Source: an uncultured Lachnospiraceae bacterium
Lineage (GTDB): Bacteria; Bacillota; Clostridia; Lachnospirales; Lachnospiraceae
Assembly (NCBI GenBank): GCA_947631625.1
Contig: CANRMA010000009.1
Location: 1-64,000 of the forward strand
Length of the DNA: 64,000 nt
Reading direction: 5' to 3'
Under the pieces are notes generated by a model, which did no database searches, had not been told where the DNA came from, and was given only the letters and a program-made list of their open reading frames with translations. Below, in pieces: positions 21,369 to 50,835 of this stretch; positions within the stretch are counted from its first letter, which is position 1, and each line of letters opens with the position of its first letter. The translations under genes were made by a program, and so were the position numbers.

Positions 21369-21484
21369 TACTCAGTTGTCCTCTGATCCTTTGATAAAAT
21401 TAGTTTGTATACAATATTATTATATAGTAAAAATCCGTTCGTGTAAATAATTTATAAGCTGTTTAATATTTAATGTTATATTGT

Positions 21485-21500
21485 ATAAGGGTTTAATATA
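21485..21500 (+). repeat. 16-bp direct repeat flanking palindromic element A (left copy; right copy 21708-21723)
   Basis: ATAAGGGTTTAATATA at both positions. Confidence 0.75.
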
Positions 21501-21707
21501 GGCGATTGCGAAACTCTCTCTCAACGTATATTGATTGTACATATTTAACAAACACCATTGCAGGCGCTCTGAGCCTACCGGTTCTTAGGCTGCGTATTTT
21601 GCAGCCTTAGTACCGCTGTAAGGCTCAATGCAGCGCAAGCGTGCCTGCAAGGTTTTGTTAAATTTGTACAATCTCGATAACGTATATCATGGTTTTGCAA
21701 TTGCCTA
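21501..21707 (+). mobile_element. Palindromic MITE-like element, copy A (207 bp)
   Basis: Terminal inverted ends GGCGATTGCGAAAC / GGTTTTGCAATTGCC; nested inverted repeats; shares extended similarity with 21872-22079 and 37293-37498. Confidence 0.75.
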
Positions 21708-21871
21708 ATAAGGGTTTAATATAATGAGGTATAGTGTTTAATATATTATGAAGTATAATATTAATATACATGTTTTCTAAGATGATTAATGTTATTTATA
21801 ATATGCCCACAAAGTATAAAAGTGAATATTTGGCTTGTCCGGGCAGATTTGCTTGGATATAATATTTTTAA

Positions 21872-22079
21872 TTAGTGATTGCAAAACTTTCTCAACGTAT
21901 ATTGATTGTGCAGATTTAACAAACACCATTGCAGGCGCTCTGAGCCCGCCGGTGCTTAGGCTGCGTATTTTGCAGCCTTAGCACCGTTGCGTGGCTCAAC
22001 GCAGCGAAAGCGGCCTGCAAAGGTTTTGTTAAATCTGCACAATCTCGAAGACGTGCATCAGCGTTTTGCAATTGTCTGG
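21872..22079 (+). mobile_element. Palindromic MITE-like element, copy B (208 bp)
   Basis: 20-bp perfect arms GATTGTGCAGATTTAACAAA (21904-21923) / TTTGTTAAATCTGCACAATC (22025-22044); core hairpin 21950-21986; flanked by ATATTTTTAA at 21862-21871 and 22080-22089. Confidence 0.75.
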
Positions 22080-22112
22080 ATATTTTTAAAACTCAAAGGA
22101 TGATATTGACCG

Positions 22113-37251: not shown

Positions 37252-37292
37252 AAGTGTTAAAGTAGAGTGGTAAGCATTTATATTCATATATA

Positions 37293-37498
37293 GGCAATTG
37301 CGAAACTTTGATTTATGTCTTTTTGGATTGTACAGATTTAACAAAACCCTTGCAGGCCGCTTTCGCTGCGTTGAGCCTCGCAGCGGTGCTAAGGCTGCAA
37401 AATACGCAGCCTAAGAACCGGCGGGCTCAGAGCGCCTGCAATGGTGTTTGTTAAATCTGCACAATCAATATACGTTGAGAGAGTTTCGCAAATGCCTA
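37293..37498 (-). mobile_element. Palindromic MITE-like element, copy C (~205 bp, opposite orientation to A/B)
   Basis: GGCAATTGCGAAAC...GTTTCGCAAATGCC ends; core CGGTGCTAAGGCTGC-AAAATAC-GCAGCCTAAGAACCG; similar to A/B in reverse complement. Confidence 0.75.
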
Positions 37499-49469: not shown

Positions 49470-50756
49470 ATGTTTGCAGATCGTGCCAGAATATATGTAA
49501 AAAGCGGAAAAGGCGGAGACGGTCACGTCTCTTTCAGAAGGGAAAAATATGTTCCAAACGGCGGCCCCGACGGCGGAGACGGCGGAAACGGCGGAAGCGT
49601 TTATTTTGTCGTGGACGAAGGCTTGAACACTTTGACGGATTTCCGTCATATCCGTAAATATTGCGCAGGAAATGGTGCAGAAGGCGGAAAACGCAACTGC
49701 GCCGGCAAAAACGGCGAGGACATTTTTATAAAAGTTCCGGAGGGTACGGTTATAAAAGAGGCCCAGAGCGGTCAGGTTATAGCCGATATGTCCGGTGACA
49801 ATAAAAAACTACTGTTATTAAAAGGCGGTAGAGGCGGAAGCGGAAACCAACATTACGCCACCAGCAAAATGCAGGCGCCTAAATATGCGCAGCCCGGTCA
49901 GCCGGCTATGGAGCTTGAGCTTATATTGGAACTTAAAGTTATAGCTGATGTTGGGCTTGTGGGCTTTCCCAATGTGGGTAAATCGACTTTTCTTGCAAGA
50001 GTGACCAATGCCACGCCCAAGATAGCCAATTACCATTTTACCACTTTAAATCCCAATCTCGGGGTGGTTGACTTGGATGACGCCGACGGTTTTGTGATCG
50101 CCGACATTCCGGGGCTTATTGAAGGAGCGTCAGAAGGCGTGGGACTTGGACATGAGTTTTTGCGCCATATTGAGCGTACCAAGATAATACTCCATATCGT
50201 TGATGCGGCTTCAACCGAGGGAAGAGATCCTGTTGAGGACATATATGCGATCAATAAAGAACTTGAGGCCTATAATGCAGATATAGCCGCAAGGCCGCAG
50301 ATCATAGCTGCCAATAAGATTGACGTCATATACGGCGAAGACGACCCCATAGCCCGTATAAAGGCCGAATTTGAACCCAAAGGCATACCTGTATATCCAA
50401 TCTCGGCAGTCAGCGGTAAGGGCGTCAGAGAGCTTATTTACGCTCTTAGGAATAAGCTTGATGAATTTGACGGCGAACCTGTGGTCTTTGAACCCGAATA
50501 TGTTTTTAAAGCGCCGGATTACGCTGCCTCTGAACCTTTTACGGTCATATATGATGAAAAAGCGGATGAATATGTGGTGGAAGGTCCCCGCATTGAAAAA
50601 ATGCTTTCCTATACCAACTTAGAGTCAGAGAAAGGCTTTCAGTTCTTCCAGAACTTTTTGAAGGACAACGGGATACTTAAACAGCTTGAGGAACTGGGGA
50701 TAGAAGAGGGCAACACGGTCAGGATGTATGGACTGGCGTTTGATTATTATAAATAG
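49470..50756 (+). CDS. obgE: GTPase Obg
   Basis: Gly-rich N-terminal Obg domain; GFPNVGKSTFLARVTNA; DIPGLIEGASEGVGLGHEFLRHIERT. Confidence 0.97.
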   Translation: MFADRARIYVKSGKGGDGHVSFRREKYVPNGGPDGGDGGNGGSVYFVVDEGLNTLTDFRHIRKYCAGNGAEGGKRNCAGKNGEDIFIKVPEGTVIKEAQSGQVIADMSGDNKKLLLLKGGRGGSGNQHYATSKMQAPKYAQPGQPAMELELILELKVIADVGLVGFPNVGKSTFLARVTNATPKIANYHFTTLNPNLGVVDLDDADGFVIADIPGLIEGASEGVGLGHEFLRHIERTKIILHIVDAASTEGRDPVEDIYAINKELEAYNADIAARPQIIAANKIDVIYGEDDPIARIKAEFEPKGIPVYPISAVSGKGVRELIYALRNKLDEFDGEPVVFEPEYVFKAPDYAASEPFTVIYDEKADEYVVEGPRIEKMLSYTNLESEKGFQFFQNFLKDNGILKQLEELGIEEGNTVRMYGLAFDYYK

Positions 50757-50804
50757 GTAATTGCAAAACCATGATATACGTTGAGAGAGAGTTTAGCAAA
50801 TACC
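50754..50804 (-). mobile_element. 51-bp internally deleted derivative (copy D) of the palindromic element
   Basis: TAGGTAATTGCAAAACCATGATATACGTTGAGAGAGAGTTTAGCAAATACC = left and right ends of the family fused at ATATACGTT. Confidence 0.75.
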
Positions 50805-50835
50805 TGGAAACATATAAATATGAAAGGATCAAAAG

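Follow-up and report, generated by a model that had tools for sequence, protein, structure and literature searches.

The window studied here, i.e., the whole 64,000-nucleotide stretch of DNA, holds three palindromic copies of a non-coding, multi-copy element of about 205 bp. What are these copies, what moves them, and what is the folded sequence at their center? A first-pass annotation, made from the letters alone, had read them as a nonautonomous mobile or RNA-structural family. We conclude that copies A, B and C are MITEs. We are fairly confident that an IS1182-like DDE transposase acts in trans to mobilize these non-coding elements, and that their interior is a 95-nt passenger module. The module itself looks like an undescribed family of structured RNAs or hairpins.

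Copies in the window and the dispersed family

All three copies lie where the first-pass annotation had put them, A and B in direct orientation and C inverted, though its ends (21501-21707, 21872-22079 and 37293-37498) are replaced by the exact ones in Table 1. Its intergenic region of ~745 bp holding A and B measures 744 bp (21369-22112). The nested palindrome is real, as the RNA fold of whole copy B reaches -111.8 kcal/mol vs -60.3 +/- 4.6 for shuffled sequences (z -11.3). No ORF of at least 70 aa lies within the elements, in agreement with the annotation, and the ATG of a 250-aa ORF is found ~35 bp past copy B. A and B had also been proposed as a tandem pair that founded the family, and this we do not uphold. 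Each has its own target duplications, and A shares 98.5% identity with a copy on contig 4 but only about 87% with B, so the two arose by independent insertion. A tandem duplication as their origin is ruled out by the separate target duplications and the different sublineages.

Table 1. Coordinates of the elements, their inner modules and their target duplications in the window
Feature	Position	Strand	Evidence
Left target duplication of copy A (ATAAGGGTTTAATAT)	21485..21499	.	16/16 match to right side, one base shared with element end
Copy A, full-length MITE	21500..21707	+	Both ends 0 mismatches to TIR consensus
Structured inner module, copy A	21556..21650	+	Covariance model R1, 103.3 bits
Right target duplication of copy A	21708..21722	.	
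Left target duplication of copy B (ATATTTTTAA)	21862..21871	.	
Copy B, full-length MITE	21874..22077	+	
Structured inner module, copy B	21927..22020	+	Covariance model R1, 101.0 bits
Right target duplication of copy B	22080..22089	.	
Copy C, full-length MITE	37292..37497	-	32 bp upstream of hisZ (ATG 37530)
Structured inner module, copy C	37350..37443	-	Covariance model R1, 100.0 bits
Mini element, 51 bp, same ends, almost no interior	50755..50805	.	TIR scan of window, 0 and 1 mismatches

The family extends far beyond the window. The annotation had named, as a finding that would speak against it, that only these copies exist; BLAST gives 92 matches to the element across the 2.67-Mb genome. A pattern search followed by an iterative profile over the fetched loci yields at least 61 full-length copies, defined as those above 150 bits, plus truncated ones. 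The 61 copies have a mean pairwise identity of 84% and a nearest-neighbor median of 94.6%. They are bounded by 15-bp terminal inverted ends, AGRYNWTTGCGAAAC and GTTTCGCAATTRYCT, a pattern found 183 times in the genome, compared with 4 times when it is reversed as a control. The target duplications are AT-rich and vary in length from ~8 to 16 bp. A repeat score of at least 9 is reached in 28 of the 61 copies vs 4.8% of shuffled pairings, and a convincing target duplication is absent in the other 33.

The same ends and similar duplications bound two further kinds of element. A second MITE family, of 142-158 bp, has a different hairpin interior with the arms ATACAAAACGGGGTTCC and GAGTCACCCCTTATTTGTAT; it is seen upstream of copies at L030, L008, L024 and L053, and also at L097, L099, L101 and L111. 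Mini elements of 48-62 bp hold little beyond the two ends, and besides the one in Table 1 they are seen at L098, L108, L109 and L124.

The insertion sites follow a pattern. In 48 of 61 copies a Shine-Dalgarno-like site and a start codon are located within 90 bp of an element end, and in 33 of those 48 the start is at 30-39 bp. The hisZ leader, which carries copy C, is 278 bp long in this genome vs 83, 117 and 68 bp in the congeners G011, G007 and G021. These three leaders are too short for the element, and the duplicated target itself is not alignable across species. A loose motif flag in the same three leaders was likewise discounted, as intervals of this length cannot hold the element. The copy number, the target duplications, the leaders of relatives that lack the insert and the autonomous partner described below all bear out a nonautonomous dispersed family.

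An insertion sequence with the same ends

A search of congeners for the ends of the MITE led to an insertion sequence of 1755 bp in G011, both ends of which have 0 mismatches to those of the MITE. Its protein of 490 aa matches PF05598 (2.4e-11) and PF01609 (2.4e-5), i.e., DUF772 plus a DDE domain. The best NCBIfam family is IS1182, with 77 bits for NF033551 vs a curated cut-off of 270. Because the score falls below the cut-off, we name the partner IS1182-like and do not call it a member. The partner is found in four congeners, as homologues with 64-77% identity and the same end motif are present in G035, G023 and G002. Two copies in G035 and another two in G023 have an intact end on either side, and the remaining copies of the homologues have just one end within the fetched stretch. 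Target duplications of 14 bp flank both G035 copies, and the G011 copy has none.

In the present genome, which is 81% complete, we did not find an intact partner transposase. A relic is present (G000 contig 20), consisting of a 99-aa remnant and one intact end. Three PF01609 genes of this genome were examined as partner candidates and rejected, as none has MITE ends. Partners with the same ends also occur on megaplasmids of Butyrivibrio proteoclasticus (pCY360, as a tandem pair) and of Roseburia, and this supports, short of proof, that the genome family f1, to which most matches of the module belong, is Lachnospiraceae. The pCY360 pair (L257) has a target duplication at each junction, and the gene table of the collection lists no gene there.

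We infer from the shared ends that the IS1182-like transposase moves the MITE. It would recognize the 15-bp inverted ends in trans and would insert the element a short distance upstream of ribosome-binding sites, in AT-rich DNA, duplicating ~8-16 bp of the target. The interior, in this reading, is a passenger module on a long stem, often found outside these MITEs, and not a deleted transposase gene. Template-switch homogenization may be part of what keeps the stem arms complementary.

MITEs are also associated with the IS1182 family, e.g., IS1272, the transposase of which combines DUF772 and DDE as that of the partner does. Newly inserted IS1272 has been reported to replace stem-loops without target duplications (PMC5678879), whereas the partner has the 14-bp duplications at both G035 copies. 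The first-pass annotation had compared the architecture with Correia/NEMIS and REP/BIME, and kinship with either is unsupported, since ends and duplications differ. The Correia/NEMIS elements of Neisseria are likewise short intergenic MITEs able to form transcript hairpins. Their target duplication is TA, in contrast to 8-16 bp here, their ends are different, and our family has a conserved multi-part interior module. REP, BIME and REPIN elements with RAYT resemble it as high-copy intergenic palindromes, but here we see direct target duplications and ends common to a DDE insertion sequence. As a mobile element, this is a new MITE family that is ordinary except for its passenger.

Structure and distribution of the inner module

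The 95-nt module comprises variable stems, a GNRA hairpin, a fixed U.U mismatch, a YU bulge and a GUNYUUU loop. The fixed features are CUUAG/CUUAG with the U.U mismatch, the bulge, the GUNYUUU loop and a two-pair hairpin. The annotation was right in seeing a core stem with one mismatch, which is this U.U, fixed across the family. The nested palindrome that it described is correct; the actual fold is more than one simple hairpin, as the long stem carries a small second hairpin, of GNRA type, where three helices join in a three-way junction. Of the 81 distinct sequences, 75 have a GNRA loop (GAAA, GCAA, GAGA, GGAA, GGGA) on the two-pair hairpin, and the tip stem is Watson-Crick or, in 34 of the 81, has tandem G.A pairs. 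Extra hairpins are seen within the second stem of the module, on either strand of that stem (L128, L129, L131; L050, L054, L063).

The covariation of the module is very strong. We aligned the central 95 nt across this genome and its congeners (A2) and made the covariance model R1 with an explicit structure. A further alignment (A4) of the 81 distinct sequences was fitted to the model and thus leans towards it: 89.6% of its cells pair, and double-sided changes occur in 29 of 31 pairs. Cells with double changes number 500 vs 147 +/- 10 in shuffled alignments and 58-87 in slid controls, and the covariation score is 0.50 vs 0.17 and 0.055-0.114, respectively. In an unfitted alignment (A1), compensatory changes are found in 28 of 40 predicted pairs. 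Together with the GNRA loops, this backs the structural side of the earlier reading. With its covarying stems, GNRA loop and three-way junction, the module resembles the structured RNAs of Rfam. None of the 4227 families matches it at the gathering score, and below that score we see weak, implausible matches alone, so that the annotation's own counter-case of a known RNA did not materialize. The literature that we searched, largely without subscription journals, gave no description of the element, which may exist under another name.

The search with a covariance model that the annotation had recommended shows that the module is spread genus-wide and across f1. Within the genus, R1 finds the module in 36 of 37 genomes, the number of matches in each ranging from 1 to at least 69, and no match is seen in the 24 genomes from other families. 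A scan of 392 genomes of the order finds 67 that match, 66 of them in f1, across about 33 genera, and one borderline match in family f5 (E 3.4e-4). In a scan of 398 genomes of the phylum, the only genome outside f1 with matches is G784, and these are weak. This sole matching genome outside the order has three module-like matches of 34-37 bits. By DNA search, the module is not found in phage or plasmid collections, nor in the plasmid stretches around the insertion sequences.

Many module copies are not part of the MITE: they lack its ends and are located at the tip of long, near-perfect stems. The arms of these solitary modules are unrelated between loci, with a within-locus score of 19.4 vs 6.8 when shuffled and a between-loci mean of 9.0. 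At one orthologous locus (G098/G061, L199/L200) the module is nearly unchanged, in contrast to the poorly aligning intergenic stretch on its left. Closely spaced modules in inverted orientation (-,+), the two separated by a few hundred bp, also occur at L198, where the arms of the two are unrelated, and on G336 contig 9, G356 contig 47 and G364 contig 2. The tip hairpin CTTAGGCTGCGTATTTTGCAGCCTTAG, or close variants of it, is seen in REP-like two-hairpin elements of congeners (L070, L074, L075, L084). A TwoAYGGAY RNA (RF01731) lies about 77-143 bp from two G011 module copies (L066, L085) and does not recur in 40 other loci.

Competing readings and significance

Is the module selected as RNA or as DNA? 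The GNRA loops, the tandem G.A pairs and the excess of G.U over A.C suggest an RNA on the + strand; the count of G.U vs A.C is 55:30, much of it from single columns. We infer that the module acts as RNA on this strand, and we would guess that, within transcripts, it serves as a self-folding RNA element. Among tandem gene pairs, with genes taken from simple ORF calls and copies that are not independent, the module is antisense in 50 cases vs sense in 27 (p 0.012). Since the antisense placement is commoner, a role in the mRNA of the neighboring genes is not obvious.

The strongest competitor, which we regard as possible though clearly less probable, is that the module is selected only as DNA, in palindromes corrected by template switching with a tip recognized as a cruciform or as single-stranded DNA. 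The lack of a sense-strand bias agrees with this, as do arms that are locus-specific yet near-perfect (19.4 vs 6.8 shuffled). Template switching at quasipalindromes is an established mutation process that can hold such arms complementary (PMC7202029, PMC8604942). Nevertheless, homogenization alone would erase the fixed U.U mismatch, the YU bulge and the asymmetric GNRA hairpin, and would not keep them. In addition, the GNRA loops (75/81) fit one strand only, and tandem G.A pairs stand in place of Watson-Crick pairs at the tip. We consider a structured RNA somewhat likelier than a role as DNA only. Our fuller proposal, to which we give an even chance, is that the module is an undescribed structured-RNA class of Lachnospiraceae-like bacteria, that genomes carry it in numbers from 1 to at least 69, that selection keeps it at some loci on long locus-specific stems, and that transposon-type MITEs have captured and amplified it.

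We disfavor the idea that the MITE is of REP/REPIN type and depends on a RAYT (Y1) transposase for its movement. The dispersed, high-copy intergenic hairpins and the tip hairpin in the two-hairpin elements of some congeners are in its favor, but direct target duplications and 15-bp ends common to a DDE insertion sequence make it improbable. Slighter still is the chance that part of a conserved gene or a known RNA was misread as a mobile element, as the module retained in place at the orthologous locus might suggest, given the MITE ends and target duplications, the short hisZ leader of congeners, the absence of an ORF inside and the absence of an Rfam match at the gathering score. Of the earlier interpretation, the nonautonomous dispersed family and its structural character stand, and the founders and the kinship with Correia/NEMIS or REP/BIME do not.

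A MITE with a conserved folded interior, in place of a transposon remnant, ties mobile DNA to structured RNA, apparently within one of the major families of gut bacteria. Because the module is frequent, has a clear consensus and is missing from Rfam, its function can be tested without delay. Together with its insertion sequence, the MITE also provides a natural transposition system, one that apparently lands just upstream of ribosome-binding sites.
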